DNA from: Physcia stellaris
Lineage: Eukaryota; Ascomycota; Lecanoromycetes; Caliciales; Physciaceae
DNA: 64,000 bases
Assembly (NCBI GenBank): GCA_018902385.1
Contig: JABSSW010000030.1
Span: 124,001-188,000 of the forward strand
Direction of reading: 5' to 3'
Every line of letters begins with the position of its first letter. Positions within the stretch are counted from its first letter, which is position 1. The position numbers and the translations under genes were made by a program. Below are positions 2,969 through 39,360 of this stretch, piece by piece. The notes beneath the pieces are model-generated. The model ran no database searches. It saw only the letters and a program-made list of their open reading frames with translations, and was not told where the DNA came from.

Positions 2969-3238
2969 ATGCCACTTTCCACTGAAGCCATTATCTCGCT
3001 CATTAGCGTCATCGTCAATCTCCCTCCAGCCCTGTTCATCGTCTGGATACTTTACTCCCGTCGTCGCCGTCAACCAGGCGATGTCCACCATCTAGGTAAG
3101 AATGATGTTGGCATTAAGCACCTTACCGAGGCTGATGACTGTGACTTCCATTCAGATGGCAACCAAGTCGAACTCGATCGGAGACCCCAAGCCAATTTGG
3201 AGCGGCCGAGGAGGACTGTTGTCACCTTCGAAGGTTAA
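2969..3238 (+). CDS. small single-pass membrane protein, unknown function
   Basis: Two exons, 2969-3095 and 3156-3238, with a clean 60-nt intron (GTAAGA ... CTGATGACTGTG ... CAG), give 69 residues. The N-terminus MPLSTEAIISLISVIVNLPP leads into a hydrophobic helix ending ALFIVWILY. A basic stretch SRRRRQ follows, then a short polar, arginine-rich tail ending TVVTFEG. The charge pattern suggests one transmembrane helix with the tail in the cytosol. Small proteins of this shape are frequent in Dothideomycete and Leotiomycete genomes and have no known role. The start was chosen because the helix begins just after it; the frame is open further upstream. I do not recognise a family. Confidence 0.5.
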   Translation: MPLSTEAIISLISVIVNLPPALFIVWILYSRRRRQPGDVHHLGKNDVGIKHLTEADDCDFHSDGNQVELDRRPQANLERPRRTVVTFEG

Positions 3239-5110: not shown

Positions 5111-5641
5111 TTCTCGGAAGAGAAAATGCGGGATAAGTTGGATGTATTCTATCTGAGAGCAACGCGGTGAGTATACAAAGGCTAAAAAGATCAGCTGTAA
5201 CCACAGAAAGTTGTGTTTCAACAATGGGCATGTCTATACGGTGGTAGTGAATCTCATCTCACTATCAAGATTGGTTCTCTAATTTCTGAACAGCTTTTCA
5301 GACCTGGACCAGGATGTGTTCTGTCACTTATACTGACTGGAATTAACAACGGATTACCTCTTCACAAGTCGGCAATCAAAATTCTTGTCAAGAGTAACTA
5401 TACAGGCTTCAGTAGATGGCAATGCGAAGGAGATTTGACAACCCCATCTTGATGAACAGCGCTGAAAGCCTCGGAAGTCACAAATACAAAATCTTAGCCT
5501 TAGGCGCTGTTGTAGGAAACATCCGAGGAATACAAATTCCACAACCCCATACGACAATAACACCATGAACAAGAATCGAAGTCTTCGCAGAGATGATCAA
5601 GTCTTAGTTGTGCATCTGAAGACAAGGATTTTCTGGCTTGC
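5111..5641. other. intergenic, nothing recognised
   Basis: Short frames on both strands lack domain signatures. The stretch is the downstream side of both flanking genes, which converge here. Confidence 0.4.
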
Positions 5642-8778: not shown

Positions 8779-9795
8779 ATGGCTCTCAGACATTTCACGA
8801 AGCTGGAAGATTGGGAGATTACCAAAGCCTTTGAAAGACTTCAGATAGCACCTACCATATCCGATCCGCCTATAAACACGTATGTGCGTATGACCGATGT
8901 GGTAGGCGAAGGTCGTGGGTACGTTGCTTGTAGGAATATCACAAAAGGCACACGAATACTTCAAGACGAGGTAATATTCTCGATCCCGGGGAATGCCAGT
9001 GCCAAACAAATCAATCAAGCAATAAAAAAGCTTGGAAAAGTTGAGCGGGAAGCATTCGGCAAACTCGGTAATCCGGAGATGGATAACAGCACACGCTTCT
9101 ACACATACGGTTTCAACATGCCGAAAGTCGGACCATCTACGCACTCTCGGTCAGGAGTATTTTTACATGCAGCTCGTTTCAACCACTCGTGCATGCCCAA
9201 TGCATTTTGGACCTGGAACGAGCAAGCGGGCACGAATGACAAAGGCCGTCTTACAGTGAACGCAACCCGGGATATTGCGACTGGCGAAGAGATTACTTTC
9301 GACTACACAATGCTCGATAAATTTGAGTCACGTGCCGACCGTGTGGCGACCCTCGAGAAAGATTATGGCTTCGTCTGTAGTTGTCCAGCTTGTGATACAG
9401 AAGATCCAAGCTTCACCCGGGGTGACGAGAATCGACAATGGATGAAAGATATTCACAAAAATAACCGAAAATGGGCGGAAGGTACCGTACGTACCAGACG
9501 CAACGAAGCCAACCGGAGACGAAGATATGCACAGCTCATGGACACTCAGAAGCTCCTTGAACTGATTGAAATCGAGGGTATTGGGTACCCACAACAGGCC
9601 GAGGCAAATGGCTGGCTAGCAACGTGGTGTATCAGAGAAATAAAGCTGGATGGACCCACTGTAATGGACCGAGAGGAAGCGCGCACAATGGGACTTAAGG
9701 CCGCTAGAAACAAGCTTGATCTCGACATTGTCGCTGCAGGTGATAGGTCATCGGAAGTAGAAAGTACCTTGAATCTTATTGCACAATTAGGTTAG
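8779..9795 (+). CDS. SET-domain protein 1 (SMYD/SET5-like)
   Basis: A single exon encodes 338 aa. The SET core is visible in order: GEGRGYVACRNITKGTRIL near residues 42-62, then RFNHSCMPNAFWTW near 133-146, the NHSC motif that binds the methyl donor. GEEITFDYTM near 177-187 includes the tyrosine used in catalysis, and a zinc-binding post-SET CSCPACD follows near 213. This arrangement is that of fungal SET5/SMYD-like lysine methyltransferases. The substrate, histone or not, cannot be told. It shares the start (M.LR.FT..E.W.I...., ..RLQ..PT) and layout with the gene at 10868, so the two are tandem paralogues. All key motifs are intact. Confidence 0.85.
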   Translation: MALRHFTKLEDWEITKAFERLQIAPTISDPPINTYVRMTDVVGEGRGYVACRNITKGTRILQDEVIFSIPGNASAKQINQAIKKLGKVEREAFGKLGNPEMDNSTRFYTYGFNMPKVGPSTHSRSGVFLHAARFNHSCMPNAFWTWNEQAGTNDKGRLTVNATRDIATGEEITFDYTMLDKFESRADRVATLEKDYGFVCSCPACDTEDPSFTRGDENRQWMKDIHKNNRKWAEGTVRTRRNEANRRRRYAQLMDTQKLLELIEIEGIGYPQQAEANGWLATWCIREIKLDGPTVMDREEARTMGLKAARNKLDLDIVAAGDRSSEVESTLNLIAQLG

Positions 9796-10867
9796 GTTCG
9801 ACCGGCAACTGTACAATAGGGAAACTAGTTCCGTCCAATGCTTGATTCTTTTTGTATTGACGAATGTCAGCAGCATTGTAGTAGTGAAGAGTCCTATTAA
9901 TAGCAATTGTTAGCACTTGTTGGAAATTACATACAGCGAGACTTTTTAGGGTAGCTGGCCCCATGCAACAGTTAACACAATTACAATGTGAGCTTGGAAT
10001 TTACAAGCAGATCGAGTCCGCCATTGGAGATTGCTGTCCATGAAGTAAGCCTCCGTAGAGAGAGCACGAACCTTGTGTGCAAAGCAATTGAATTCATCGC
10101 AATCCCAAGCATGTTGCTATTAAGGGTTTGACGAAACAATTAGATCGTTGTTCTCAGTCATCCGGTCCCGGATTTGAGGGGTAGGTGGAACATCCGATGA
10201 AGGTGTGATTGTAGGCTTTGAGCCACCTGCTTGTACTACTGTGTCCCCATTGCCCGGTCTCGCTCCGGCTGATCCTCAACCAAGAGAAACCTAGATCCGA
10301 AGTGGCATGAGGTAAATGTCGAGATATGGCTTGTTGCCCATGGTCTCTCCCGAGTGCAAGCAAGTGCCCCTGAAACGGCAGAGTCAGGGTTTCCCAGGAA
10401 GATGGCAACAAGCACTATCATGGACAAGACGGTTGAATACCTTTGCCCTAGTTGCTGGAACTTTAGGTCCTAAGATCAGTACAAAGATCATTCCGTCATG
10501 TGCAGACATTGTGTCCTCATTAGGCAGCTGATTCTTACAAAACAGTGTTTCCAGAGCAAAGGTGTTTTTTGTGAGGTGACTGGTGTCTCAGACCAGTGTC
10601 TTGTTAGACCTGCACAAACGGAAGCCGATGAGATTGTTCCTTTGTTAGCCATGAGACTGTGCTTACGAGTGTTTTAGGCTTTGTGTAGTTGTCGCACAAG
10701 AGTCACCGGCATTGTGTTTATAAGCTGCAGGTAAATGACTATCTTCTAGTAGAACATCAGCAAACCATTTACCACAAGCCTATCTCTTCATCTCACATAC
10801 CATTGGCAGGACCAATAGCACGAGCAAACTACAGTATCACACTACTTTTGCCCCCATACTAATCACC
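9796..10867. pseudogene. intergenic with relic of the HD-gene 3' end at about 10,150-10,275
   Basis: On the minus strand near 10,275-10,150 the frame reads ARPGNGDTVVQAGGSKP. It aligns with ARPGDGSIPVHASGSRP at the end of the HD-phosphohydrolase gene (12,368-13,983, same strand). The relic sits about 355 bp after SET gene 1; the full HD gene ends about 435 bp after SET gene 2. The rest of the HD gene is missing from this copy. The remainder of the stretch shows nothing recognisable. Confidence 0.55.
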
Positions 10868-11932
10868 ATGCCCCTTAGAGAATTTACATCTCATGAAAAA
10901 TGGGTAATCAACGATACATACAACAGACTTCAACTATTGCCTACCGTGCGTAATCCAACCCCGGAAGCATATCTCGACTCAGCCGACGTGCCAGGCAAAG
11001 GTCGGGGATACTTAGCTCGCAAGAAAATCACGAGAGGTACCCGTATCCTCGAAGAGAGTCCGTTCTTGTGGGTTAGGAGATCCAGCAACGGCAACAACTC
11101 AGTGGACAAGAAGGAAGCCGCAGTAATCACGCGACGGTTGAAGAGATTGCCAAATGATATCAAGACTCTGTTTAGCGATCTTAGTCCAGCTGGTACCGAT
11201 TTCTTTCAGCGCTTGGAAAGGAATGCTTTCGAACTGTCGGGAGCTGAACATTTGACGACTTTCGCAACAGGCATATTCCTGGATTTCTCGAAAGCTGGGG
11301 ACTTACAGCCTGAAACGTCCGGCATCTTCCAATATGCATCTCTTTTCAACCATTCATGCATACCGAATGCGCATTTCACTTGGAATCCATACATAGGTCT
11401 GGACGGCCGTCTCACAGTACACGCGATCCGGGATATAGCCTTAGGGGATGAAGTCGTGGTTAATTATCGAACCAGCGATAGCTACGAAGGAAGGGCCGCC
11501 CGTATGCGAGAGCTAAGGAACGACTACGGGTTTGACTGTACTTGTCCAATTTGTGATACTCAATCCCCAATTGCTGCGCAGAGCGAGCAAAATAGGCGTT
11601 CGATGAGGAAGATTGTTAAAGAGCTTGAACGAGGTGGCGAGAATCCAACATTCAAGCAAAGGCAGGCAGAGCTCACAGGTTTGCGGTTACTTTTAGATGC
11701 GGCCAAGATGGAGCAAATGGTCTTTCCACAGCAAGCTGATATCTATGGTGACCTGGCTGAATGGTGTGCCAGAGAAGGTGCGCAAACAGGGCCAATTGTT
11801 ATGGGTCGCGAAGAGTCCCACAAACTGGGTCTCGAAGCAGCTAGAGAAAAGCTCCAGCTTGAGATTCTCTGTACTGGCGAAAGATCGTCCGGCGTCGAGG
11901 AATCCTTGGATCTGATTGCAAGAATAAGCTAG
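10868..11932 (+). CDS. SET-domain protein 2 (SMYD/SET5-like), tandem paralogue
   Basis: A single exon encodes 354 aa. Motifs follow the same order as in its neighbour: GKGRGYLARKKITRGTRIL near residue 44, LFNHSCIPNAHFTWN near 160, GDEVVVNYRT near 205 where the catalytic tyrosine is kept, and post-SET CTCPICD near 237. The insert between the first motif and NHSC is longer than in gene 1. It is a probable lysine methyltransferase of the SET5/SMYD class with unknown target. The region just upstream carries no obvious core promoter. Duplication together with part of the downstream HD gene is indicated by the relic after gene 1; the divergence of the pair suggests the duplication is old. Confidence 0.85.
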   Translation: MPLREFTSHEKWVINDTYNRLQLLPTVRNPTPEAYLDSADVPGKGRGYLARKKITRGTRILEESPFLWVRRSSNGNNSVDKKEAAVITRRLKRLPNDIKTLFSDLSPAGTDFFQRLERNAFELSGAEHLTTFATGIFLDFSKAGDLQPETSGIFQYASLFNHSCIPNAHFTWNPYIGLDGRLTVHAIRDIALGDEVVVNYRTSDSYEGRAARMRELRNDYGFDCTCPICDTQSPIAAQSEQNRRSMRKIVKELERGGENPTFKQRQAELTGLRLLLDAAKMEQMVFPQQADIYGDLAEWCAREGAQTGPIVMGREESHKLGLEAAREKLQLEILCTGERSSGVEESLDLIARIS

Positions 11933-12367
11933 ATGATGAGGGCGCTGGAAGAGTAGGACGGAATGGCAGGTTCAATGCAATATGAAAAAGTCCGACTTGA
12001 CTGGTCGGGTTTACCATGTGGAACGAGCTGGTAAAGCAGTCTCCAGATCACCACACTTGTGATTTGTTGAGTTGCTCGCCTAGACTTTATACAGAGGGGC
12101 GTGTGTGGGGATCTCTTACGGCGGTTGGAGGTTGAACTTCGAGAAGTCAATTATAGCCAGTACGGGTAGCTGTCATCACTCATTAGCCCACTAGCTCTTA
12201 ATGATAATATGCTCTATTTACACATGCCACAGCTAGCAAAATGTCTCGATAGCGCAAGCTACAACAAAGAGGGCAATCCCAATGGCAGACCCTTTCCTGG
12301 TGATGCAGTCAATGCCCGAAAGAAGGATAAAGACCTAGAACCGGGATTGATTTGAAGTGGATCGTAT

Positions 12368-13983
12368 TCATATTCGGTTATTTGATGGATGTTCTACGTT
12401 GCTAGCCAAGTTCTCTTGATGATCTGGCAATTGGGCTTGATTCGGCGAGATAATTCCTGAAGGTGGAGGCCTCGAACCACTTGCATGTACTGGTATAGAT
12501 CCATCGCCAGGTCTTGCTTCTTTGAGGACAGCGCTCGCTACCCACGGTGGCACTTCCTGTACCCACGCCATATCCCCCGTTTCAGCACGAGCCAGACCCA
12601 TCTCTTCTTGCCACCAGCGGCCAAATATCTTAAGTCTTTGGGACCGTACAAACGCTAAACGTTTTCCTTCTTCAGTCTTCATCTTTGCTTCAAGATTGAC
12701 GAGTTTGTCGCGAAAGTGATTGATTGTTCCCGCCATTCCTTCTTCCCGACCTTTGGCGCCACCATATGTGAATGCACGACCAATGCCAATAGCTCCCATG
12801 GCATCAATCCGGTCGGCGTCTTGAACTATCGCAAGTTCTGGGTGGAGAGCTAGGGCGGACGCAAAGGCGTCAGGATCGGTCGTCTCCGCTAGAGTAACAG
12901 TCAGCAAGACCATCTATGCGCACTCCAGGGTGACGAGTATTAGATAGGACATCCAAGGCATTAGCTTTACACATCATGTTGCCACAGCGCCTAGTACGAC
13001 ATACCTTTGTAAGAGACCCAAGGGGTGATAGCGCTGACTTTGGATGTAACATATGGGGGCCATCCAAGGCGGAGGAGGTGATCTTCCACAGTTGGAGGCG
13101 ATGTCGGCAGTGAGAGTGGAAGTAAGCTGGTATCGAGATGCTCAGGAAAGCCAGATGTATTGAGTTGAAGGTTTGAGAGGAACGATGGATCATTAGAACC
13201 TATGCGCTGTGGGTCAGTCACACTGCCAGGATTAGTGTGATGACTGGAGTTTCCTTCATTTGCTGGATGCCGGTACTTGTGGTCATCGACATCATGCATT
13301 AAAGCCGCCAGCTCGATTGCCAAGGTATCGTACATGATGTCGCGATGAGCACTCTGCTCCGCTCGTAAAATATCCAAGCTCATAGCAGCAACGCGCAGTA
13401 TATGGTTGTAGTCATGACTGCCGTCGAATTGAGGCTGCGACATGTATTCTTTCACCCACGTCCTAGTCTTTTCCAGCAACTGCCTCCTTGCTGGATAGGT
13501 CAGCTTCTTGCCGAGTTCCGCTGGTCTTTTCGGCCCTTGATTTGTATTCTTCTTGACAGGATTGCCATTCTCATCTCTTGGTAATGTCCGTATCCAGAAA
13601 CCTTGCTCGTCCCTAGGTTTGAGTGGCTTTTTCAATTTCCATCCGATCCTGATACATGTTCTCTGCAATGTACTTTCTGTCATTTTAAGTTGATATGTAT
13701 CCTCCATAAACTTGCACATGTCCTTCAGGTAAGAATCAGGGTGTTCGTTCAAGAAGCGAAGGAGGCTCTCCTCGTGTTCCCTGTTGAGCTTCCTCCTCCG
13801 CCCAGTAGGCTTTTTTTTGTTGGTATTGATGACTTCCCCATTCGCGAGGAAGCGACTCCTCATAGCTCGTGCTTTTGTGCTCGAGATGTTGTGATTCGTC
13901 TGTAAGGTCTTGAGGTCCATTATACCGTTTTGTAGATCGGCTTTGACAAGGTCGCATAATGCGCTGGAAAAGGCTCGAGGCAT
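12368..13983 (-). CDS. HTH-domain / HD-phosphohydrolase fusion protein
   Basis: Exon 1 is 13983-13005 and exon 2 is 12888-12368. The 115-nt intron (GTATGT...CTCTAG) rebuilds VSYKAETTDPDAF, total 499 aa. Residues 1-140 look like a Tc1/paired-type helix-turn-helix region: LKTLQTNHNISSTKARAMRS, then TESTLQRTCIRIGWKLKKP. Residues about 180-430 form an HD phosphohydrolase of the YedJ-like fungal family, with the metal-binding DGSHDYNHILRV, the HD pair in LAALMHDVDDHKYRH and the distal aspartate in IVQDADRIDAMGAIGIGR. The HD part would hydrolyse a phosphorylated, nucleotide-like substrate, which is unknown. The frame is open upstream to 14268 but that part lies in the transposon TIR, so 13983 is preferred. 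Two genes merged by a missed intron or stop is the main alternative. Confidence 0.7.
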
Positions 13984-14180
13984 GGCTAATCGGTAGAAGC
14001 TTGCAGCTTCGTAACGGTAGACAATAGATGGAACAAGGTACACGTGCACGAACGTGGTATGGCGATTAAGGGACCCTAGGACCTCTGTGCTAACAACTTG
14101 GTGGCGCTCGGAGATCAGGAGGGAGCGCTCGGTCAGAAGTTTAGCCGGCGCCGCAGCCCTCTTCCATATCACCATACGGA

Positions 14181-14746: not shown

Positions 14747-14883
14747 TGCGTTTTTTTTTTTAGCATCGAAATTTCTTGAAATAATCAGAATTTTTTCATT
14801 TGCTTTATAGCAGAAATTTTTAAATCTGTATATTTTTTGACTTGAAAAATCACTGTGATCGTAATTTTCGCATCGAATCAAAC

Positions 14884-16820
14884 TAATGTTTACTCGTCAA
14901 GTCTGTGAACTTGTGCAAGAATGAAGTTGATTAACATCGATAATGCGATATGATCATGCATTCAATTTTGAAACGGAGAATAACGGATATTACACACGAA
15001 AATAATCAAATTTGACAAGTGATTTATCAGTATCGAGAAAAAGAAAACTGGAAATGTTATAGAAAGTCGATCGGAAATTGCCGACACGCGACTGTTGCGT
15101 TTATCGAAAAATTTAAACGTCGAAATTAAGAGCAATATTTCGATGCAAAAAATCTAATCAAACATTCAACACGATCGCATCGATATTTTCGCAACGTCTG
15201 CAGATAATGCAAATCTGTATCGCGAAAAATGAGTTTATTGATTGATGAAGAACAATCGATTCATCGCATGTTTAATTTTGTAATCAATGACATTTCTATT
15301 AAATCTTCGTTTGTAACAACATTAAATAAGTAAGATAATGCATGAGAATAATGCATAAATTAACGAAATCTAAAATATCTCGACGTTCATTCAAAGTCTA
15401 AAGATTTTCAAAACGTTCAGTCAACAACTGCTATTGTTATGACGATGAATGAAAACGATGAAAATATTGCTGATGATATTTCAACGAAAAATGTGAACAT
15501 TGATAAGAATGATAATGCAAAAAAATAATGCATAAATTAACAAATGATAAAACGTTTTGTTGAAGAAATTGCATTGTTTGTCTCGTTTTCAGTCAATATT
15601 TCGTCGATCAATTGAGACGTTTTTGCGAGCGTTGTTCGAAAGTTTAAGTCGAAAATCGTTGCTGAAATGTCTATTGAATTTGCTAATGATAAGAAATTTG
15701 AAAAAACGCGAAATGATGAAATCGTTGATATTAATAATCATAATGATTTCTCGTCTTGTAAATCGAGTAATGCATGACGATAATGCATAAATTAACAGAT
15801 CATCGCAATTGCTGAAAATGAAAACACTCAAAAAGAACTCGAAATATCAGCATCTCAAATGTTTGAAAGTCGAAAAATGTCGAGAACGATGAATCGAATG
15901 AAAAGATACTTGATGAAAATGAAATCAAAATTGCTCACAAATTCGATACTCATGATATTGTCATTATTCATACTGAATTCGGAAATGATGATCAAATTTC
16001 AAATAAGTCGAATAATGCGTCAAAGTAATGCACAAATTCACAAATCGAAACACGCGTCATGAGAAAAACAAATTCGCAAATGAGTGATGACATTGATGTG
16101 AACAAAAACAAAGCGCCGATCACAAAGCGATTAAAAATGAACATGATCGCGTTCAAACTTTTCGCGCTCAAATTTTTTGCGTTCAAGTTTTTGCGTCGAA
16201 ATTTCTCGCGTTCAAATTTGTCAATAAATCGAACAAAAAATCAATCGCAAAGCGCTTCAACTCATTGACTAAAAAAAGAATCGCGAACAAATCGATAATG
16301 CATTCAAATCATTGCGTTATCGAATATTGATTAACACATCAATAAAAACACAAGCGAGCAAAATTCGAAATGATCGTATTGCGCGAAATCAAACGTTTTC
16401 AAAAAACGACTGAACTTCTAATTGCAAAAAAATCGTTCGTGAAACTTGTGAGAAAAGTGATGCAAAAATAAAAAAAAAATGTCAAAATTCAAACATCGAT
16501 TTTTGAAATTTTGCAAAAAAATATCGAAACGTTTGTCACAAAAATGTTTGAAAATAAATCAAATGCATTATTTTTGCGCATTATCTTGTTGACTAATTTC
16601 TATGAAATGATTAATGCAAAAACGATTCATGCGAAACGAGTGACTGTTCAGATGAAAATATTCATTTTGTTCGAAAAATTCTGAAAATGTCTGTGAATAA
16701 CAATGTTCAATCATTTAGACACAATGTTATTTCTGTTGAATAGTTAATTTACATAATTTGAGTTCGTGTTTGAATTGCTTTTCATATCAATATTTGTCAT
16801 ACGTGAATTGAAAATTAAAT
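14884..16820 (+). repeat. H-unit copy 1 (about 1.94 kb) with H3-like frame
   Basis: The unit is homologous to 17,943-19,922 in the same orientation, from taatgtttactcgtcaagtc to gaaaattaaat. It contains a decayed multi-part reading frame on the plus strand. An early part has a basic stretch matching KKFKRRN-like sequence near 15,110. Segments of roughly 180-280 bp are separated by paired ATAATGCA boxes at about 15,328, 15,509, 15,764 and 16,012. The unit ends in a histone H3-like fold. The unit's family is not recognised; it may be part of a hAT-type DNA transposon, since the same H3-like end follows hAT remains at 21.2-25.4 kb. Confidence 0.65.
16370..16740 (+). pseudogene. histone H3-like histone fold, copy 1 (decayed)
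   Basis: The frame reads LREIKRFQKTTELLIAKKSF, which lines up with canonical H3 [20 protein letters not shown] at the alpha-N and alpha-1 helices. Further on come LQKNIETFVTKMFEN (H3 LQEASEAYLVGLFED) and IHAKRVT, identical to the H3 IHAKRVT before the last helix. A spacer with a reversed box pair lies between FEN and IHAKRVT, perhaps an intron. No K4/K9/K27-type tail is recognisable upstream. The copy is decayed by the region-wide C-to-T change. It is closer to a divergent or CENP-A-like H3 than to replicative H3. That it is H3 seems clear; any function is unknown. Confidence 0.75.
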
Positions 16821-17942
16821 GATAATGCGTGATGATAATGCATTTTCGTTATTTAGTCAATTTAGAAATCGAACATTATGAAATTTTCATCGTTCGTATT
16901 TTCGTTGTTTTCGAACTCGTTTTCGTCATCGAATTTTTTTCACGTTTTTTTTTTTTTTCGTTATCGTCGTCGTTTTTTGCACTTTTTTTTTTTTTTGATC
17001 GCATTGAGAAAATCGATTTTAATATCTCGATCTTTCGCATTGTGCGAAAAAACAAAATCATTAATTGTTTTTCGCATTTTTTCATCGCGTCAACAAAATT
17101 CGTCGTTTTCAATGCGCGAATTTTCATATCGTCATAAAAAACGCGTTACGCAATCAATTTCATCACTGAATACAAATATTTTTTATTGCGTTTTGCACGC
17201 GTTCAATGTCGTCATCGTTTTGCATTTAAAGTGAATCATTAATGAAATCAACAAACTTTGACAGATTTTGACATTGAGAATTCATCGATTGTTGCGCAGA
17301 TTCGAAGTTTGCTATTCGACGTATGATTTCGATTGCATTCTTTTTTTGCATCGTTTTGTCGTGCTTGTTCGTCGAATTTTTTTATTCTGTCGATAAATCT
17401 CATCTTTCAAAAGCACGCTTAAAATTAATTAGAAATCGCAATTTTTATATGCATTATTCGATTGCATTATCATGATTGTCGTTCTCAATACGCATCGAGC
17501 GTTTTTTTTTTTTTATCATTTTTTTTCAAAGTTTTGCGATTTTTTCATCAAATTCAAATCAGACAGCAGTTTTCATCAAATTTTTTTTGAATTTGAACAC
17601 AACGACATTGTCGACATTTTGTGTTTTGTACAGTTTGATTTGAATATTCGATCAATGCTTTTTTCTTTCGCGATTAGCGATATTTTTTGAATTCGTCGAA
17701 TAAATTTTAACAAATGTAAACTGTGCGAATTCGAACATTTTGAATGAAAATATCAACACGATAATGCGACAGAATAATGCATCATCATTGAACAATGTTC
17801 AGAACGTACGTCGAGTATGAATCAATACGAAATGATCGACAAAATTGAAAACAAATTTGTGATTGAAATCATTAGCAAACGTCATGCGATAAGCAATTGA
17901 ATCATATTTGAAAACGAAAAAAAACAGACGTGAAAATACAGA
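16821..17942. other. AT-rich spacer between H-units
   Basis: Decayed sequence with box pairs at about 16,819, 17,451 (reversed) and 17,761. Long T runs read on the minus strand as lysine-rich frames. No domain is recognised. Confidence 0.35.
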
Positions 17943-19230
17943 ATAATGTCTAATCGTCAAGTCTGAGAGTTTATTTGCAATAAAGTTGATTAACATCGAT
18001 AATGCGATATGATAATGCATACAATCTTAAAATATTCACATCGTAAATGATTAAACGAAGAGTAACGAATATTACAAAAAAATAATCGAATATGCGAAAT
18101 GATTTATCAATATCGAAAAAAAAAGCTGAAAATGTTATAAAAAATCGATCGAAAATTGTCGACACGCGATTGTTGCGTTTATCGAAAAAATTTAAACGTC
18201 GAAATCAAAAGCAATATTTCGATGCAAAACATTTAATCAAGCATTCAACACGATCGCATCAATATTTTTGCAACGTTTGCAAATAAAGCAAATCTGAATC
18301 GCAATGAAATGAATTTATTGATTGTTGAGCAAATTTCGATAAAACGCATCGACAATTTTACTGAATATTCATTTGTGACAATAATAAATAAATAAAATAA
18401 TGCATGAAAATAATGCGTTGATTAACATTAATTAAAACATTTCAATTTATATTCAAATCACAAAAATTGAATCATGTTTTCATCAAATGACATCGATGTC
18501 ATCAATTTCATAAATCAATTTCGAAATGTTGTCGATTTTCAAACAAGCACTGAAAATAACGAAAATAATACTGATGATAATTCAAAGAATGTTCAAAACA
18601 CGAATAAATAATAATGCATGAAAATAATGCATAAATTAACAATTTTCAAAGTTTATGTTCGCGAAAACTGATTTGTCTGTTTCGTTTATGACGAATATTC
18701 AATCGTTCAAATTTAATGTTTTGAAAAACGTGATGCGAACATTTAAAACGACAATCGATACGAAATCTGAAAAAACGAAAAATGATGAAATCATTGATAT
18801 CAATAGTAATATCAATAATAATAATAATTTTTTTCTTGATAAGTCAAATAATGCATGAAAATAATGCATAAATTAACAAATTATAACAACTGCTAAAAAT
18901 ACGAGAATTTCAAAAAAGTTCGCAATGAAAGCGATTCAAAAATTTGAAAATCAAAAAAATGTCGAGAACAATATTTCGAATAAAAAAAAACTTGATGAAA
19001 ATGAAAATTTGAATGCAAATCAATTCGATGATGATGATTTTGACGATAATGAAACGAATGACGATAACGATATTCGAATTTTGAATAAATCGAATAATGC
19101 GTCAAAGTAATGCACAAATTAACAAATCGAAAAACGTCGCATGAAAAAAGCAAATCGACGAATGAATGATGACATTGATGTAAACAAAAACAAAGCGTCG
19201 ATCAAAAAGTCACAAAAATTGATTTTTATC

Positions 19231-19320
19231 GCGTTCAAATTTTTCGCGTTCAAATTTATTGCGTTCAAATTTTTTGCGTTCAAATTTATCGCGTTCAAAT
19301 TTATCGCGTTCAAATTTGCA
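19231..19320 (+). repeat. 15-bp tandem repeat, six units
   Basis: Units of gcgttcaaatttwty read IAFKF/FAFKF on the plus strand. A shorter, more varied version lies in H-unit 1 at about 16,147-16,222. It precedes the H3-like fold. Confidence 0.7.
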
Positions 19321-19466
19321 ATTCAATCGAACAAAAAATCGAACGCAAAACGTTTGAAATCATTGATTAAAAAAAAAATCGCGAACAAATCGATAATGCA
19401 TTTTGATCATGCGTTATCGAATATTGATTAACACATCAATAAAAATTCAAACGAACAAAATTCGAA

Positions 19467-19817
19467 ATGATCGCATTGCGCGAAATTAAACGTTTTCAAA
19501 AAAGCATTGAATTATTAATTGCAAAAAAATCGTTCGAGAAATTTGTGAAAAAATTGATGCTAAACATAAAAAAAAATGTCAAAATTCAAACATCGATTTT
19601 TGAAATTTTGCAAAAAAATATCGAAACGTTTGTCACAAAAATGTTTGAAAATAAATCAAATGCATTATTTTTGCGCATTATTTTGATGATTAATTTTTAT
19701 GAAATGATTCATGAAAAAACGATTCATGCGAATCGAATAATTTTTCAAATGAAAAATATTCATTTTGTTCGAAAATTTTTGAAAATGTTTGTGAACAACA
19801 ATGTCACAATCATTTAA
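19467..19817 (+). pseudogene. histone H3-like histone fold, copy 2
   Basis: The longest open H3-like frame reads ALREIKRFQKSIELLIAKKS (H3 [20 protein letters not shown]), then ILQKNIETFVTKMFENKSN, an inserted spacer, then TIHANRIIFQMKNIHFVRKF (H3 [20 protein letters not shown]). Helices alpha-N to alpha-3 can all be placed. The insert between FEN and IHA contains a reversed TGCATTAT pair and may be an intron or an inserted motif. The frame starts at the H3 core rather than with a tail, so an upstream exon probably carried the N-terminus. It sits at the end of H-unit 2 and faces the minus-strand copy at 21,183-21,517 across an AT desert. Confidence 0.75.
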
Positions 19818-19922
19818 ACACAACGTTAATTTCGTTGAATAATTAATTTACATAATTTAAATTCGCGTTTGAATTTTGCTTTTCATATCGATATTTGTTA
19901 TGCGTGAAATGAAAATTGAATC

Positions 19923-21182
19923 GAATAACATTTAAAAAACGCGAAATGTCAAATTATGTATATTTGTGACGATTTTGTTGTCGAATCATCATCAAAATCA
20001 TATGAAACGAAAGCAAAATTTTTGTCAAATATGACGCAACAAAATATTGTCGATTTTCATGCTGTTTATAATTGATTTCGATTTATAATTATATTTCATG
20101 AAATAATAATAATATGATAAATGACTTTTTGTCAATTTTGAACAATACATTATATCATTATTTTTCATTTTAATTTTTGAATTGTTAGAATTTTATTTAT
20201 GTTTTTCAAATAACGCAATATAAATATGAATTTTAATTTTTGCATTAAATTATTGCGTGCAAAAAAATATTAAATATCGAATTATTCGAATATTTAATTT
20301 TTCAAAGAATCAAAAATCATCATAAATAAAACAAAACAAATGTTCATAATAACAATATTTGTTTTTTAATAAAATTGAAATTCATTTTCGATTGTTGAAA
20401 ACAAATAATTTTAATACATCGAAATAAAAAATAAAAAATAAAATATCGATTTAAAAAAACGAAAAAATAATAAAATATTATTCGATTAATTTCGTATATA
20501 AATTAAAACAATACAAATAATTTGTTTATATGTAAATTATTTAAAAAAAAAATAATTAAAATATGTCGATATAAAATCATTTAAATTAATAACAAAACAT
20601 CAAATTGACAAATTTATATTATTTATATTACAATCATAAATTTATAATTATATTATTATTATTTTATTATAAACTTTTTTATATATTTAAATAGAATTAA
20701 TATAAACATTTAAATTATTGAAACATCAAACATATATTATTTATATTACAATCATAAATTTATAATTATATTATTATTTTATTATATTTTATATTTTCAT
20801 ATGATTAATAAAATGACAATTTTTGTAATTTTATAATAATTTATATATAATATAATATTGAAATGTCAATTCATATTATTTCGTACGTTTTTATTGTGAT
20901 TATATTTTTATTTTATTAATTGTTTAAATTATTGTATGTTAATATTTTAATTTCAAATTTGTATTTTTTAAAAACAAATATTTGTATCATATATATGTTT
21001 GAATTTGAATTGAAAAAACGTTTATATTGAATTTCAAATTTCTAATTCTAAAAATGTATTTCAGTTAAATTCTAATTTTTTCAATATTCGAATATAATTA
21101 ATATCAATATTCATTTTGAAAACTTCGATTGATTGAATTTTCAATAAAAAATTTATGACATAAATTTCTATATACGAATTAA
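19923..21182. other. extreme AT desert
   Basis: About 1.26 kb made almost only of A and T, with rare C or G and short ATTATATTA-like motifs. A stretch around tttataattatattattatt recurs near 20,640 and 20,760. There are no open frames of note. Unlike the surrounding decayed DNA it also has many TA steps. It lies between two convergent H3-like ends. Confidence 0.6.
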
Positions 21183-21517
21183 CATGTTCAATAATTTTTT
21201 AATTAATTTAATATTTTTGTTTTGAGCAATTATTCGTTTTGCATGAATAATTAATTTGTTAACAACTAATAAATATCAATAAAATTATGATTTGAAAATT
21301 CGAACAACTAAAAAGAATATTTATTTTCGAATATATCAATAACATAAATTTCGATTGTTTTTTGTAATATTTTCAAAACATTTGTTTGAATTCGTATTTC
21401 GACATTTTGATTAATTATTTCAAACAAAATTTCTCGAATCACTCGTTGAAATGACAGTTTTGATATCATAAAATCAATCGATTTTTGATATTTTCGAATT
21501 TTTTTAAAAACGTTCAA
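21183..21517 (-). pseudogene. histone H3-like histone fold, copy 3
   Basis: On the minus strand the frame reads IRKYQKSIDFMISKLSFQRV, then IREI, matching H3/CENP-A RRYQKSTDLLISKLPFQRVV and REI. VLKILQKTIEIYVIDIFE follows. After a gap containing TTGTTAAC the frame gives IHAKRIIAQNKNIKLIKKLL, the H3 C-terminal helix. This copy is less like copies 1 and 2 than they are like each other. It lies immediately downstream, on the same strand, of hAT transposase remains and of a lysine/arginine-rich frame at 21,676-22,011. It could therefore be a C-terminal part of the same transposon gene or a separate cargo gene. Confidence 0.75.
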
Positions 21518-22567
21518 TCGCGCTTTGTTTTTGATTCAATAAAAATCAATTTGTGCGAATCAAATGCATTATCAATATGCATTATTTTTTTTGATTTCGA
21601 TTTCTTGTTCGAAACATTATTCGAAACAATTTTATGCGAAGTTTCAAAAACGATCAAATCGATTTGAAAGTTTTTTTATTGAATCACAAATTTTTTTTTT
21701 GCGCGAATTTTTTTTTCAACATCATTTTCACGATTTTTATCTCGTGAATCTTTAGCTCGCTTATTCACGACTTTTTTTCGCGAACTATTATTGATTTGAA
21801 ATTGATCAATTCGTTTTTGAATCGTTAAAAATGCGACGATGTTTTCGTTCGCAACAATATCGTTAAATTTCGATATTTTTCGCGATTTTCGATGCACATC
21901 ATCAATATTTTTTTCGAAATTTTCAGCAAACGAATTGATTTTTTCATTTTTTTTGTTTTCGACATCATTCAAAAATTTCGTGATCACGATATTTAAAAAA
22001 TCATTTTTCAATTTTTAATCGTCAAATGCATTATTATCAAGCATTATTTCGATTCATTTTATCGATGATTTTTTCGAAATTTTCAGCAAACGAATTGATT
22101 TTTTCATTTTTTTTGTTTTTGACATCGTTCAGAAACATCGTGATCATTGTATTTAAAAAATCAATTATTAATTTTTAATCGTTGAATGCATTATTATTAA
22201 GCATTATTTTGATTCATGTCATCGATGTTTTTTTTTTGCTTTTTGTTCGTGTCATTCAGTTCAGATTTTAAACATTTTTTCAAAATCGAAAAATCGATAT
22301 CAATTTCGTTTTTCATGAATGTTTCATCGTTTTGCGAATTGAAATTTTCAATCTCGAAAATGTTTGAACTTTGAAAATGTTTTGATAAATTTGTCGTTGA
22401 AAAGAATTTTCGAACAAATTCTGTTGTTTTATCAATAATATATTCAGACAATAAAGTGAAAAATACAAATTTTCAAATTTCATAAAATTCATGTTTGTTT
22501 GCGTTACGAAATAATCTATCAAATAAATTATTAATAATAGATTAATTAGAATACTAAATGAAAATTG

Positions 22568-22600
<33 letters not shown>

Positions 22601-22860
22601 ACGTTTATACGATTCGAAAATTAAATTTTGCAATTATATGCGATTATGCGCAATCTAATTAATATTTTCGATGTTTTGATTGAATGCAAATAATTTATGC
22701 ATTATTTGTTTGCATTATCGATGATTATTGCAAATTTCATTTCAAATCGTCTATTATTAAATTTTGAAATCATAAAACGAAACATTTTTTTTATTGAACG
22801 ACGAAAAACATTTTTCATCGCAATTTCATTATTTTCGTTTTTTTATCGTTTTATTAAATT
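21518..22860 (-). other. decayed minus-strand exons between hAT remains and H3-like copy 3
   Basis: Open frames at 21,676-22,011 (basic, with VNKRAKDSRDKNREN) and 22,197-22,451 are flanked by box pairs at about 21,562, 22,026, 22,186 and 22,697. Two near-copies of a stretch (cagcaaacgaattgattttt) lie at about 21,925 and 22,086. A run of 31 A lies at 22,568-22,598. No known domain is seen. Confidence 0.4.
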
Positions 22861-25438
22861 TCAAATTTTCGAAACAGCATTTTTAGATTTTGCATTCATC
22901 GTTCGATTATAATATTTGATCATCATCGTTTTTTCAATCGTTTTTTGATTCAACATTGCTCGATCATATTTACAGATTCGACGTGTCAAACTGAAAATTC
23001 GCTTCATTTCTATCGATGAAACAGAACAAAACAAAATATTTTTCGTCATTCGAGTCAATCGAGAAAAATTCGAAACATTATCGTTTCAATATTGTCAATT
23101 AGAATTTTCTTTCATGATTGATATAAAGAAATAACGTTCGATTTCGTTTTGTGATTGTTTCGATTTTCGATTCGATCGCAAAATCGAATTAATAAAAAAA
23201 ATTTATTGTTTTGTTAAATTGAATTTCAATGCATTATTTTGATGCATTATTTTTATCGAACGATTGAAAAATAACGCGTTGAAAATCATCATATATTTTG
23301 TCATCATAATGATTTCGATAGTAATTCAAAAATCGTTTACGAACGTCGTTGATATACGCATTTTTTTTTTTTTTGTGATTTTTCGAAATTGTCATTTTCA
23401 TTTCAGATTTCATAAATCGATAGCTTGTTGATTGAATTAAAATATTAGCAAAATCGTATATCAATTCATCATTTTTTTTTGTTTTCGCATAATATTTGAA
23501 AAGTTTTTGAATGATTTTCGCACAAGCAATCAAAATTAATGATTTGTCGAAACATTGATTTTGTCGTATCGTGTCATTGAAATAATTCAGATGATCGTAT
23601 AAAAAATTGAAAATTTTAAATTCAGTTTGCACATTAGTGTTCGTGATTCGAGAAACAATCAATGTGATTTCGTAAAATGTTTTTAACATGTTTTCGAAAA
23701 ATAGAATTTGATTTCAATCATCATCAAATATTCGAATTTTGACAATTTTGACATCGTTGCGATTTTTTTGAATTCATTTATCAACGAATCGTCGAAATTG
23801 ATAAACACGTCGTATCATAAAATAACAAAAGTTTCAACGAATCTTGACATTTTGTTTCAATTTTCGAAAACGTTTAATTTTTGTTTTCTTTTGTAATTTC
23901 ACAAAGCGAATCTTTCGTTGCGAAAAAGAATTGATAACAATCGTCAAAACACGAATTTGATTATTTTGTTAACAAATGCATTATTTTTTTGCATTATCAA
24001 ATTGATTTATTTTTTTGACGACTTTTGACATTTTTGTATTTTGTTCGATGTCATCGATTTGATCATTTTTCAAATTTTGAATAACATCATCGCTAATAGT
24101 TTCGATTTCAATCGAGTTGATAAAGTTTTGTGCGATTAAATTGCACACATGAATTAAACAGTTCATGAAATTTTGATTCACATTTCAGTTAATGCTCATT
24201 TCAATCATCGTTAAATTCAATAATTGTTTGAAAATGCGATTATTGAATGCATTATCAATCGTGATCGTCATTAACTTTTTTGTTATTTCATAAAATTTTA
24301 GTATTGACAGCAAAAATTTAACATTTTTTTTCGTCATGACAAACATTTAACGAAACAAAGTCGATAAATTTTTCTTGATATTGAAAATTGATATTCATTC
24401 AATATATCATCACATCTAAATAAGCGATTTTTTGTTGATTGAATCAAACATCTAACGAAATAAAAATTCGATTAGCATTTTTCAATTGATTTCTCAATTG
24501 ATCACGAATCTTTTCATAATTTTTCGTTACAAGTTGATTTAATTTGATGCGATGTGATAGTTTCAAATGAATCGATTCATTTTCAGATATATTCGAAAAT
24601 GTTCGTTTTCGATCGTTCGATAAGAAAAATCACAAGCAATAAAGATTTTGATTAAATGCTTTTCAAAAAATTTCTCGTCGAATGTTGCACGAAAATCGAA
24701 TTTGTTTTTTTTTTTCTAGTAAAAGTAAATAAATGCATTATCAACATGCATTTTCAACAAATTTACATTGACATTCTCGAAAAACTCGATTATTTTTGAA
24801 AATCAAAGCGACATTGTTCGATTTTTTTTTTTCAACTTTAAGACGATGTTTTGCGCTTTTCAAATGTTTGTTCATGACGTTGATGTCGTCATTTGCGCTT
24901 GACGAATGTTGTTGAATTTTATGACATGTTTTACAAGCAATCATTGATGTTTCGTCAAACATTTTCGTTATTTGAAGCAAATTCTTGTCAGCATGAAACA
25001 GTTTTATCTTTTTTGTTCGATCAATGTGAATTATTGTACTTTGTTTGAATTTTGTTCAAAATACTTTCATCAAAATTGATTTGTTTTCATCACTTTAAAA
25101 AAGCATTCGAACTTTTCTTTTTCAGAATACATATTTTTATTGCTATGAAAACTAAAATCAGAATGCTTTGTTCGAAATTCTTTCGTCAATTTGATTATTT
25201 GATTTTGACGATTATCAAAAGTTGAAATTATCGATGTCTGAAATTTGTGATGACTATCAAAGACTGAAATGATTGATTGTTGAGAATTGTCAATTGACAT
25301 ATCGTCATCGTCGTTCATGATGAACGAGCTTTTTAAATTTTGAATTGAAGACGAAAAGAAATTCGAAAACAATTCGAAACTCGACATTTTATTTGACATT
25401 TGAATAGATGATAAAGATAATGCAAAATGATAATGCAA
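22861..25438 (-). mobile_element. hAT-family DNA transposon remains
   Basis: Minus-strand frames, in gene order, are as follows. At 24,980-24,741 there is a BED-type zinc finger with ACKTCHK and HLKSAKH. At 24,181-23,981 CLIHVCNLIAQNFI fits the hAT C.AH..NL..Q motif. At 23,689-23,234 FYEITLIVSRITNTNV and YAKTKKNDELIYDFANIL fit the RNase-H-fold half. At 23,058-22,861 SSIEMKRIFSLTRRI and AMLNQKTIEKTMMIKYYN match the hAT dimerisation domain. Box pairs separate most of these parts. I could not place short TIRs or an 8-bp target repeat. The gene is decayed by C-to-T change across all parts. Confidence 0.7.
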
Positions 25439-28400
25439 TTTGAAACATTAATTGTATATAGCACGAAATCAAATTTCAAAATAATGCACAAAAATAATGC
25501 AAATATGATAATTGCAATTGTTCGATGAAGATCTTGAATCAAAAAGTAGTATAATTCAAAAAGTAGTAAATTGTCGAGAAGAATTGATAATAATCTCGAA
25601 TACAAGATAATACTATGATTATCACGTTTGATTTATATGAAATAATGCAAAAAAAAAATTCGAAAGCTTTGAAAAAAAGCATCTATAATTAGTATCAAAA
25701 ATATCGCGAGATAATGTAATACGTCATGAAATTAAAGTTCTTGACGAGTCAAATCAAATTCGACATCGAAATTTGAAATTTGATTCAAGCTCAAATCAAG
25801 TCTTGACATTCTGACTTGAAATTTGACTCAAGTTCAAATTTTCTAGCGTGTCAAAAGCTTGAACTTGACTCAAATTCAAGCTCAAGTCGAGACTTTCGAC
25901 TTGCAAATCGAATCAAGTCGACGCATTCGAGTTTGAAACTTGACTCGACGATCAGTTTAATCGTTGATTTGAAAAATCATTATCGTCGTGATTTTCGCAT
26001 CGAATTTCATTTTTTTCGCAATTTTTAATCAGTTTGCGTTAAAAATTTGAAAAAACATTTTCGTGAATGATTCAAAAAAAGCATGATTTGATAATTCGTT
26101 TGTTTTGTTGCTTTCAATATCGAAAATTTGATTTCGTACAATTCACAACTTTCGATATGATGATTGACAATTGATTGTTGACAACGAAATTTGAATTCGA
26201 ATTCTTATTTATTTTTTATTTTTTTTGCTTTTTATATTGAAATCGATGAGTTGTTTCGAAAAAAAGTGATTAGTCGCGAGAGACGTCGAATGAACTTTTT
26301 CATTGATGAAATAATCGCGATCGCATTGAATACATCAAATTTCGAAATTTTTTCGATTTTTGTATTTCATTTCACATTCACATATTCAACGTTTCGTTAA
26401 ATCAGACAGCAATTTCTGAAAATGTTTCTGATACGATTCAATTCTTCATGCATCGTAAATTCTAGACAGTAAACAACACAGAATTGATGATATGAAATCG
26501 TGATGTTCGATTTGAATGTCGCGATATTTGCATGATTGTTCGAGTCAATTATATCGTCAAAGAAATCATATTTGCAATGTGCGTTCGACGTCGAACGCGT
26601 CATGATATCGAATTGTTTTCGAGTCGATTGTATCATCAAAAAAATTGCATTGTCGTGTTATTGATCGTCAAATATTTTTTCGATGTACGATTTGTTCGAA
26701 ACTTGATCACTCATTCGTGATTATGAAATGACGTCGTGATGTTGACATGATTATTCAAATCAATTGTTTTATCAATTGAATTGCATTTACAAAAAACGTG
26801 AACGTTACAAAACGTTTGAACGCGTCGTGATATTGTATAACAATTTCAATCAATTGTATCATCAAAAAAATTGCATATGTCGTGTTGTTGACTTTCAAAT
26901 TCGTTTTCGCTGTTCGATTTGTCGTGATTTGATCATTCATTCGTGATTATTTTTTTATCAATGTCGATGTCTTATAAACTGATACGTGAATTTTATTAGC
27001 GAAATTTTATTTTTTTTTTTAATTTGAACTTTTTCGACAACGAGACGACTTTTTGAATACAACTATACGATAAATTCATTTCTTGAGTATTTTGAGCGAT
27101 TGAAAGATTTTCATTTTTGATGTTTCGTTTACATCTCATTGACTTTATTGATTCTAAATTTCAAGCTATGCACGTTTAAAAGCATCGTGATTTTTCGTGC
27201 ATTGATTTGCAAATTTGATTTATTTTTGAACATGTTTTGCAAACAAATTGTCGTCATAAAAACAAATAACGTTTTTGAAATTTTTGCGATCATCATATGA
27301 TGAATACACAGTTCATGTTTTATTTTCTGATAATTTGTTATGAGATTCACGTAAAGTTAATTCATTTCAATTTCGTTGAACGAAAACGATAATTTATCGT
27401 GTAATTTGTAACGAAATGTTTGTTTGCAAATTTTCGATTCATATTCGCATGTTTAAATTTTGTCAAAATGTTTTGCAACGACATTATATTTTGCAATTTT
27501 TGATTTGTTCGCATGTTTTGTAACATATTTATTCTTGTTCACATGTTCAAATTTTGCATGTTAAAATATGACGAAATGTCGTTGACGCATGTTTCGTTTT
27601 TTGATTTTTTTCGTATGTTTCAATTCGAACGAGATGTTTTGTCAATTGATTCATATTTCGTTTTCGACTTGTTGCAATACATATGAGAAAATATATTTAA
27701 ATTTTGACGAGATGTTTTGACAAGCGATTTATATTTCGTAATTTTTGATTTTTGTTCACATGTTCAAATTTTGAATCGTGTTTGCATGCTAAAATCGTGT
27801 TCGATGTTCGATGAATTATTTCGTTTGTTTGATTCGATCGACATATGTTTTGAAATGTTTTTATCAAAATATTCGTTCAAATACGTTTTATATCGTTCGA
27901 TCAAAAGTTGTTTCGCACGAACGACGTTTTTTTTATAAAATTCGACGAAACGTACAAGCAATTTTTGTGTCATAATATTTCGTTTTCGTCGTGTCAATGT
28001 CGACGTGACATATCAGAAATAATTAATTTTTGTTTCATTTGAATCGCACGAAATTTGCGCAATGAACGTATCAATTCGACGAAAACGTCAATGATTTTAT
28101 CGTCGTCATTGTTTGACAATGAACGAATTCAAACATTGAAAATCGTCGTTATTGTTTATTTTATTTCAAATTTTTGAATATGTTTTTGCTCAATCATTTC
28201 ATGAATCAGATTCGAAAATTCGCGCATTATCAATATTATTCATCGACGATCACGTTTGATGCACAATCGAAAACAAAAACGAAATCATTCGAACACGAAA
28301 TTTTTTTTTTATTGAAAATTTTTCGAAAAACGTAATTTTCAAAAAGAACGAAATCATTCGAACACGAAATATTTTTTCGTTGATAAAAGTTCGATTCGCA

Positions 28401-32232: not shown

Positions 32233-32410
32233 TAATATTAATACATAATTACACGAAAATATCGAAATGAAAAGCAAATACATGAAAATTTGCAAAAACA
32301 TATGTAAAAAATTTGATTATAAACGAATTTCGACTCTGTCATTCGATGTGATAAAATAAAAATGTTAATTTTGTCAAATGTTGAATTCGATGCACGTTCG
32401 TCACATTATT
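32233..32410. repeat. repeat R2, right part of copy 1
   Basis: Near-identical to 38,033-38,205 (about 97 % by eye) from attaatacataattacacg to gaattcgatgcacg. The left part (gaaatgtcatgcattgatat) is at 29,401-29,420, on the other side of the MULE. Confidence 0.75.
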
Positions 32411-34050: not shown

Positions 34051-34053
34051 TTT

Positions 34054-37653: not shown

Positions 37654-38927
37654 TCGTCGTCATGATTTGTTGATTAAATAAATGCGTATCACGTTCGAAA
37701 ATATCAAACAATCGTCGTTTCGATCAATAGCAAAACAATTTCGTTTTCGTTATATCGAAATGATTTTTTCGTGAAAATTCACATTCGAAATCGTTGTTTT
37801 TTGAAAAATGATTTGAATGAAATAAAATTTCGTTGTTTTCATTCAAATCGTTTAAATTTTCGATTTCACGTGAACAAAATTACGTCGTTTTCGTTGCACG
37901 TTTAAAATTTGATGACGTTTTAAATTTTCGCATTTGTTTGAGATTTTGTTTATTGAATAAATTGTCGTATTTCGAACAACTTGAAAAAATTAAAATGATT
38001 TCGATATAATGTGAAATGTCATGCATTGATATGATATTAATACATAATTACACGAAAATATCGAAATGAAAAGCAAATACATGAAAATTTGCAAAAACAT
38101 ATGTAAAAAATTTGATCATAAACGAATTTCGATTTTGTCATTCGATGTGATAAAATAAAAATGTTAATTTTGTCAAATGTTGAATTCGATGCACGCTCGT
38201 CACAAAAAATAATAGAATCGATTGATTTTTCGAATTCGAAATGTTCGAAACGATTTATGATGAAGAAATTTTGCATTGCAAAATGTCAAAATCGAATTCG
38301 ATCGATATATTCATTTTGATTTCGTTGCATCAATGCGATTTCATGAAATCGATTAATTCGAAACAATTTTTGAAAATTTTTTATTCAGAAATTGTTTGCG
38401 ATCGTTTTTGTTCAAGAATGATATTCGTACGAAACAGACGTCAATAATTTGAATTGATCGCTGTTCAAAATTACAGTTTCGTGATTAAAAATTTGAAACG
38501 AAATTGCACGAATTCATTGAAAACATTACTTTGAAATTGATTTTTCATCTGAAGTCGATGTGACTCGCATTCATATCATGAATATTATTGCAATTAGTCA
38601 TGCAAGACTTTTTGCGACAATGCTTGATGACAAAATCAACAAAACTCGTCGTGAAAAACTCATTGCTATTATTGTTTATTGATTGATTATCGAAATCATC
38701 GCTATGCGATGTAAATTTGTTCGAAAATAGACAGTTGATTCAATTGTTGTTCGTTTCAAATACAACATTGCTTGTCGCATTGATAATTTTTGTAAAATTC
38801 ATAATTTCGATGTTGAAACGATGAAGAATTTTTGCAAAATCAATTTTTATAAATCAATTTCTATTGAAACAATACGAAATTCTTGTAATCGTGTCAGATG
38901 TTGTTCAAACTTGTCACATTTACAATT
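37654..38927. other. decayed DNA including repeat R2 copy 2 (38,008-38,205)
   Basis: R2 copy 2 is uninterrupted and serves as the empty-site reference for the MULE at 29,428. At 38,570-38,930 two plus-strand frames (HARLFATMLDDKINKTRREK and CRIDNFCKIHNFDVETMKNF) look like former coding sequence, not identified. Confidence 0.45.
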
Positions 38928-39360
38928 AAACTGATCGTCGAATCAAATTTCAAATCGACATGTTCGAACTTGATTTGAGTTTGATTCAAATTCAAGCTTT
39001 TCATTTAAAGTTTGAGTTTGATTTGATCAAGCTTCAAACTCAATGTTAAAGTTTGAACTTGACTTGAAAATGACATCATATACTAATTATAGTAAAAAAA
39101 GTTCTAATAATAAAAAGTTATTAATAAATGCATTATCTTTTTGCATTACTTTTTTTTAAAACGTAATATTTACTTCAAATTTGATCATTTTTAAAAAAAA
39201 ATCAAATCAAATCAAACTTTCAAGCTCAAACTTCAAACTCAATTACAAAGTTTGACTTGATGTCAAGACAAATTTCAAACTCAAAATTTCAAATTTGATT
39301 CGATTTTTTCGAATCAAATTCTTGATTCGATTCAAGTTTTGACTCGACGCGATCAGTCTA
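38928..39360. mobile_element. MITE (433 bp), MULE-type by target repeat
   Basis: Flanked by a perfect 9-bp target repeat TTTACAATT (38,919-38,927 and 39,361-39,369). Ends are AAACTGATCGTCGAATCAAA and the inverted TAGACTGATCGCGTCGAGTC. The inside has many ttgagtttga/tcaaactcaa inverted motifs and one TGCATTAT box pair at about 39,127. It has no coding capacity. A related fragment lies near 25,730-25,963. Confidence 0.7.

Follow-up and report, generated by a model that had tools for sequence, protein, structure and literature searches.

A probable hAT transposon carrying three histone H3-like genes, hypermutated in the genome of Physcia stellaris

Introduction

Fungal hAT transposons that carry histone H3 genes have been published (PMC3538342, 2013; PMC6710886, 2019), and we describe here a related case in Physcia stellaris. 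It lies in a stretch of 64,000 nucleotides (contig JABSSW010000030.1, C30 in our numbering, positions 124001-188000), hereafter the window, and was followed through a searched genome of 44.0 Mb in 147 contigs. We conclude that it is very probably a hAT DNA transposon of the cut-and-paste type, about 12.4 kb long, that carries three H3-like genes and has been damaged by a process resembling repeat-induced point mutation (RIP). The preliminary description of this DNA knew of no described fungal element of this kind; the two papers above describe such elements.

In the available part of PMC3538342, the element of Pyrenophora tritici-repentis is a hAT transposon of 5.6 kb (and a 2.3-kb form) with one H3L gene and an unknown gene. 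Its authors placed H3L with neither H3 nor CenH3; the copies are nearly identical and expressed sequence tags were found. In PMC6710886, hAT elements with H3 were reported from Pseudocercospora, Cercospora and Sphaerulina, with similar events in five species beyond P. fijiensis. The Pseudocercospora fijiensis element is about 9.5 kb long, carries one or two H3 copies, makes 8-bp target duplications and shows CpA RIP; 471 H3-bearing elements were counted, the dimerisation domain was not found, and the authors read the H3 genes as captured intronless transcripts carried as passengers. According to the portion of that paper at hand, the second H3 of two-copy elements has a 16-residue insertion.

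RIP itself varies in context. As far as the available sections go, PMC4352252 gives a CpT signature in Botrytis, Sclerotinia and Magnaporthe, where the CpA signature is found too, and PMC7882544 quotes RIP index thresholds and names CpT to TpT the dominant form in RIP-capable fungi, so that a CpT change by itself is not new. "CpC" is absent from the text of both.

Results

Three H3-like frames

Three frames of the window were compared with the Pfam Histone family (PF00125, cut-off 26.4 bits), stops being read as X for copies A and C:

16346..16741, plus strand: H3-like copy A, broken by stops (41.7 bits, E 1.6e-10)
19443..19814, plus strand: H3-like copy B, an open 124-codon frame including an insert (33.4 bits, E 6e-8)
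21181..21535, minus strand: H3-like copy C, divergent and broken (39.1 bits, E 1e-9)

All three passed the cut-off, with E-values from 1.6e-10 to 6e-8, and a PDB search made with copy B only matched solved histone H3 chains (best E 2.1e-12). The H3-like nature that had been proposed from short motifs is thus borne out for each frame. The motifs themselves stood as described in both plus-strand copies, bar one spacing residue: by reading, host H3 and copies A and B have six residues, not five, from E to FE. The first motif, LREI.R.QK..ELLI, is not exact in copy C, which reads FKKIRKYQKSIDFMI and whose loop 1 is three residues longer than in H3.

No canonical H3 tail (ARTKQTARKS) was recognised by eye, and the PF00125 matches start at profile positions 24-40. 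Upstream of copy B, three open plus-strand stretches (18640-18858, 18877-19110 and 19123-19431), in which transversions between the tandem units described below are numerous, are possible H3 tail exons. A Pentapeptide match within 18640..19431 was weak (19.5 bits, cut-off 20.2).

Anatomy of the element

When the window was compared by blastn with 20 loci from 10 contigs, a common block emerged that runs from 14878 to about 25960 of the window, the other loci extending further left. About 1.5 kb is missing from the left of the window copy, namely the left terminal inverted repeat and the start of the first tandem unit; this left end is present in another locus (L039). The copy adjoins the halves of another repeat, an uninterrupted relative of which was found elsewhere (L028). 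From the left, the element consists of a terminal inverted repeat, a tandem pair of 3.1-kb units, the inverted copy C, a transposase gene on the minus strand and a second terminal inverted repeat. Each tandem unit has its H3-like gene (A or B) on the plus strand; the minus strand holds a further gene, which we call X. The parts found in the window are:

14878..25959, no strand: decayed hAT element, with the right terminal inverted repeat ending at 25959
14878..16820, no strand: tandem unit 1, truncated (period about 3.1 kb)
16817..19921, no strand: tandem unit 2, complete
16876..17752, minus strand: gene X, open minus-strand stretches in each unit, well conserved between units
22860..25450, minus strand: transposase gene region, broken
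22915..23094, minus strand: hAT C-terminal dimerisation region (PF05699, 22.5 bits, cut-off 21.4)
25939..25959, minus strand: right terminal inverted repeat, TAAACTGATCGTCGAGTCAAG reading inward

The dimerisation region scored 24.8-27.9 bits in six family copies. Searching the genome for PF05699 gave 13 matches, the six in the element family and seven elsewhere (C42, C34, C41, C21, C59:100608, C16:446306 and C19); none of these seven has a listed H3 match within 15 kb, and the one on C19 adjoins short left-end matches of the element family. Searched as DNA, the transposase region had 30 matches, some of them short. Within this region a zinc-finger-like CxxC...H motif was seen, by eye only, at 24741-25055, and the question of a BED zinc finger was put to Pfam with 24741-25052, where no match was obtained. 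Gene X was also considered as a histone H4 gene or a gene for another named domain; this was rejected, three minus frames of two copies giving no Pfam family at E up to 1.

The ends read TAGACTGATCGCGTCGARTCAAG at the left and TAGACTGATCGTCGARTCAAG at the right, with variants among copies, and are near-identical over about 20 bp. Between them the element measures 12.41 kb on C16, 12.46 kb on C65, 12.48 kb on C47 and 12.56 kb on C44; longer end-to-end spans were found on C27 (13.0 kb) and on C4 and C5 (about 14.9 kb). Seven end pairs were tested for an 8-bp target duplication. It is exact on C4 (GTTTTTTC) and at a short element of the window, and matches at 7 of 8 positions on C16. The short element is:

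38927..39360, no strand: non-autonomous short element (miniature inverted-repeat transposable element), with ends like those of the hAT element and an exact 8-bp duplication (ATTGTAAA/TTTACAAT)

Short stretches matching the left end also occur in C42, C7, C19, C14, C81, C41, C82 and elsewhere. Between the open stretches of the element, TAATGC(AT) motifs recur at 15500-19400 and 22000-25500, often paired a few bases apart and followed in several places by ATTAACA; possibly these are short introns that share an origin.

Genomic spread

A protein search of the genome with the frame at 19443 gave at least 80 matches, in at least 53 places and at least 25 clusters, or at least 52 places in at least 24 clusters once host H3 is set aside. 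Two same-strand H3 copies 2.9-3.8 kb apart, together with one opposite-strand copy, occur in 12 of the 24 clusters; the others show fewer H3 copies, and several of them are at contig starts or ends. The 124-codon frame, insert included, is unbroken in 5 of the at least 52 places. A diverged element on C46 was considered as an H3-free relative that might represent the ancestral state; the genome search listed no H3 match for it, and the 6.2 kb examined there gave a weak one (E 0.062), but the element is possibly truncated. Taken with the H3 matches, the terminal inverted repeats, the target duplications at three of seven end pairs and the hAT domain, these clusters support the earlier proposal that a transposon carried and amplified an H3-like gene.

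A RIP-like mutation wave

The GC content of the window is mostly 43-59% outside a block at about 14-42 kb and 13-37% inside it. Over 14.5-42 kb the observed/expected ratios are 0.02 and 0.03 for CpC and GpG, 0.36 and 0.38 for CpT and ApG, 1.29 and 1.34 for CpA and TpG, and 2.80 for CpG. CC and GG together occur 0.6 times per kb in the element compared with 113 per kb in bases 1-14000 of the window, and 0-5 times per kb in 14 H3-centred element loci (L001-L008, L014, L015, L017-L020); in longer loci reaching into flanking DNA the figure is higher, up to 105 per kb. When 9 and 10 unit copies were aligned, no invariant C column proved to be CpC or CpT (0/565 and 0/514), and the polymorphic C/T columns number 176 and 185 for CpT, 57 and 80 for CpG, and 5 and 12 for CpC. 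C-to-T hypermutation was therefore found in the repeats, unlike in the flanking host DNA. The window copy is broken, and every element copy read carries hypermutation. The CpC/CpT context is a preference and not a rule.

Classical CpA RIP was rejected, since the usual indices over 14.5-42 kb (TpA/ApT 0.41; (CpA+TpG)/(ApC+GpT) 1.58) stay on the RIP-free side. Three C5 DNA methyltransferase loci were found in the genome (L057, L058, L059), two of which we take, from sequence motifs, to be RID-like and the other DIM-2-like. The element looks as if it was wrecked by a RIP-like mutation defence of the fungus itself.

An insert at the FE site

The insert of copy B separates FEN from IHA:

19653..19721, plus strand: insert of copy B, 69 nt, where host H3 has 15 nt

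Among the 22 A and B copies, 19 could be measured, and the gap from FE(N) to IHA is 68-69 nt in 18 of them and 75 nt in one. In the C type it is 74 and 75 nt in the two of 12 copies that were anchored rightly; for the other ten the measurement began at an earlier match, and the printed sequences show a like layout. The C-type insert before IHA holds in-frame stops and retains marks of an intron: GT is kept in C27 and C6, TTAG in C47, and a branch site of the CTAAC type in C53, C27 and C6. The A and B inserts lie at the matching site and are open in several copies. The intact host H3 gene (C26:314644) has three introns, which we take to be like those of Aspergillus, and none is at the FE site; by reading, the element H3 copies cross two of these three intron sites without a break. 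The insert is probably for the most part an intron that host H3 is without. Under this reading the core would fall short of host H3 by a few residues where helix 2 ends, a difference that the reading does not explain.

Descent of the H3-like genes

We then counted, codon by codon in gap-free blocks, the positions that can be reached from the host H3 or the host CenH3 residue via RIP-type changes only; 34 copies entered this descent test (11 A, 11 B and 12 C), with loop 1, the tail and the insert left out. In B copies 49-54 of 72-76 codons reach H3 and 44-50 reach CenH3, and in A copies 46-48 of 65-67 reach H3 versus 40-42 for CenH3. In C copies the figures are 26-36 of 52-53 versus 21-32 for blocks 1-2, and 11-17 of 18-19 versus 10-14 for block 3. 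All 34 copies are thus nearer to host H3 than to host CenH3. For the B copy on C59, 54 of 76 codons fit host H3, whereas 1000 shuffles averaged 12.8 and went no higher than 24; shuffled H3 references gave means of 12.8/76 for B, 10.7/67 for A, and 7.6/53 and 3.2/19 for C.

About three in ten codons in A and B, and at least a third of those in C blocks 1-2, cannot be explained by RIP. Transversions are outside the reach of RIP as well, and they number 43 in 57 codons between B and the host gene, 39 in 53 between C and the host gene, and 38 in 53 between B and C. Third positions account for 19/43, 21/39 and 18/38 of them, respectively (one-sided binomial P 0.09, 0.007 and 0.05), and for all three of the transversions between A and B. 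Since RIP can produce neither these codon differences nor the transversions, the genes are probably not fresh copies of host H3; to judge from their codons, they were divergent variants of two kinds already before the hypermutation.

Selection on the H3 fold

As a null model, the observed number of transversions was placed randomly on host H3 and full mutation of CpC and CpT was then applied. At the full transversion count, none of 3000 runs reached the observed similarity for B (43) or C (39), and at lower counts 1/3000 did for B (36) and 0/3000 for C (27). With position 1 and 2 changes only, the similarity of C was reached in 3/3000 (18 changes). Between B and C, transversions and transitions together gave 0/5000 both ways, but many of these transitions are RIP. 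Comparing the two tandem units with each other, we counted 2 purine/pyrimidine differences among the 213 sites of the H3 core, both at third positions, 4 among the 66 sites of the insert, and 4 in 201, 30 in 205, 32 in 233 and 16 in 292 in the upstream stretches. Among group 1 element copies, the variable core columns by codon position are 0, 1 and 4.

Other features of the window

The remaining features of note lie outside the element:

8779-9795 and 10868-11932: open genes side by side, apparently of one family and SET-domain-like by eye, just beyond the mutated block
32235-38204: direct repeats of 171 bp, 98% alike, 5.8 kb apart, with the look of long terminal repeats (LTRs)

The 171-bp sequence recurs in at least 33 of the 45 matches listed in a genome search, and the repeats look like LTR candidates. 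A Ty5-Gag-like stretch at 31410-31721 scored below the Pfam cut-off.

Discussion

In the history that we favour, the cargo consists of two near copies of an H3 gene in the 3.1-kb tandem units and of one older, inverted relative beside the transposase gene. The three H3 genes have spread together as one block, which the transposase would have moved ahead of the mutation wave. The genes would once have encoded protein variants whose fold was kept by selection, and we propose that their product was most likely built into nucleosomes as a variant of H3; the preliminary description had suggested that it could affect chromatin at the element's own copies or at centromeres. RIP-like C-to-T change, mostly at CpC and CpT, has damaged the copies.

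Several observations weigh against parts of this history. Four of the seven end pairs (C47, C44, C65 and C5) have no matching target duplication. Polymorphism is frequent in CpA columns too (149 and 164 in the two alignments), although they are less completely struck than CpC and CpT. When only position 1 and 2 changes were counted, the similarity of B was reached in 190/3000 runs (24 changes), and on transversions alone B versus C is unexceptional (1748 and 1271 of 5000). After the insert, the tandem units have 2 differences in 96 sites, both at first positions, and in group 2 (10 copies) the transversion-variable core columns are 4, 6 and 1, with no third-position bias. From one unit to the other, gene X has stayed about as similar as the H3 core has, a possible sign of gene conversion. 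Finally, selection may have acted before the element acquired its H3 genes. The tests thus suggest, though not uniformly, that selection kept the H3 fold before the mutation wave, probably but not certainly inside the element.

The alternative that fares best is that the H3 genes were passengers, a host H3 transcript or gene having been caught once or twice by a hAT element and carried, inert, until RIP. This is the reading given for Pseudocercospora (PMC6710886), and we regard it as plausible here if short of likely. The unbroken passage of the element copies across two of the three host intron sites, as read, resembles a retrocopy, and neutrality survives the weaker versions of the selection tests; on the other hand, each of the 11 B copies has 20-25 codons, out of 72-76, that RIP-type change alone cannot derive from host H3, the transversions between B and C (38 in 53 codons) are about as many as separate each from host H3 while both keep the fold, and B and C share inserts at one FE site that host H3 is without. 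A more tentative idea, which we think somewhat unlikely as it stands, is that a hAT lineage has long inherited its H3 variants as a working part and not as accidental cargo, and would use this divergent set of three genes of two kinds to alter chromatin for its spread, the Pyrenophora and Pseudocercospora elements being other branches.

It is very improbable that the transposon carried a CenH3 acting at centromeres. The block is AT-rich, and copy C has, besides its long loop 1, the D of host CenH3 (STD), a residue shared by type C and joined by R in the C53 copy; but all 12 C copies fit H3 better (H3-only codons 6-7 versus CenH3-only 1-3 in blocks 1-2, and 1-3 versus 0 in block 3), as do all 11 A and 11 B copies, so that the descent test, with 34 of 34 copies nearer H3, disfavours a CenH3 origin. 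Slightly less probable still is the spread of ordinary host H3 pseudogenes by segmental or subtelomeric duplication, without transposition or mobile context: several clusters do lie near contig ends (C2, C27, C31, C72 and C91), but those in C4, C5, C6, C16, C30, C59 and C65 are tens of kb or more away from them, and the fixed inverted-repeat ends, the hAT transposase, the target duplications at three of seven pairs and the common block among loci led us to reject it.

The locus adds a further fungal genome to those with an association of hAT and H3. Like the published elements, it combines H3-like genes and a hAT transposase within shared ends and has been amplified. With the Pseudocercospora element it shares H3-like cargo between hAT ends, 8-bp target duplications, AT-rich blocks, RIP of the copies but not of host H3 and, going by the part of PMC6710886 at hand, an insertion in one of two H3 copies (16 residues there). 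It differs in length (about 12.4 kb against about 9.5 kb), in having three H3 genes instead of one or two, and in a mutation bias mostly at CpC and CpT instead of CpA to TpA; whereas intronless capture was proposed there and the dimerisation domain was not found, here the genes have a probable intron of their own and the domain was found. In the available text on the Pyrenophora H3L element, a hAT transposase, a gene of unknown function and an H3-like gene are likewise combined, but there is one H3L and the copies are near-identical, unlike the three H3-like genes and hypermutated copies described here.

As for the mutation, the available parts of PMC4352252 and PMC7882544 describe CpT-signature RIP that resembles ours in C-to-T change before T in repeats and in the presence of C5 methyltransferase genes. 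Unlike in the species of PMC4352252, as presented there, CpC and CpT are here nearly emptied and CpA is above expectation. Block-averaged, the usual indices would score this block RIP-free although CpC is almost gone, and index-based surveys could for this reason miss such RIP. In the part of the literature surveyed, neither a hAT element with three H3 genes nor a CpC/CpT form of RIP that spares CpA turned up. The apparent age and constraint of the H3 genes exceed what a chance capture would suggest, which makes the question of passenger or tool testable by comparing fungi. The association of hAT and H3 was already known; what differs here is that the element bears three H3 genes, belonging to two divergent kinds, that these have a probable intron which host H3 is without, and that the mutations have another context.

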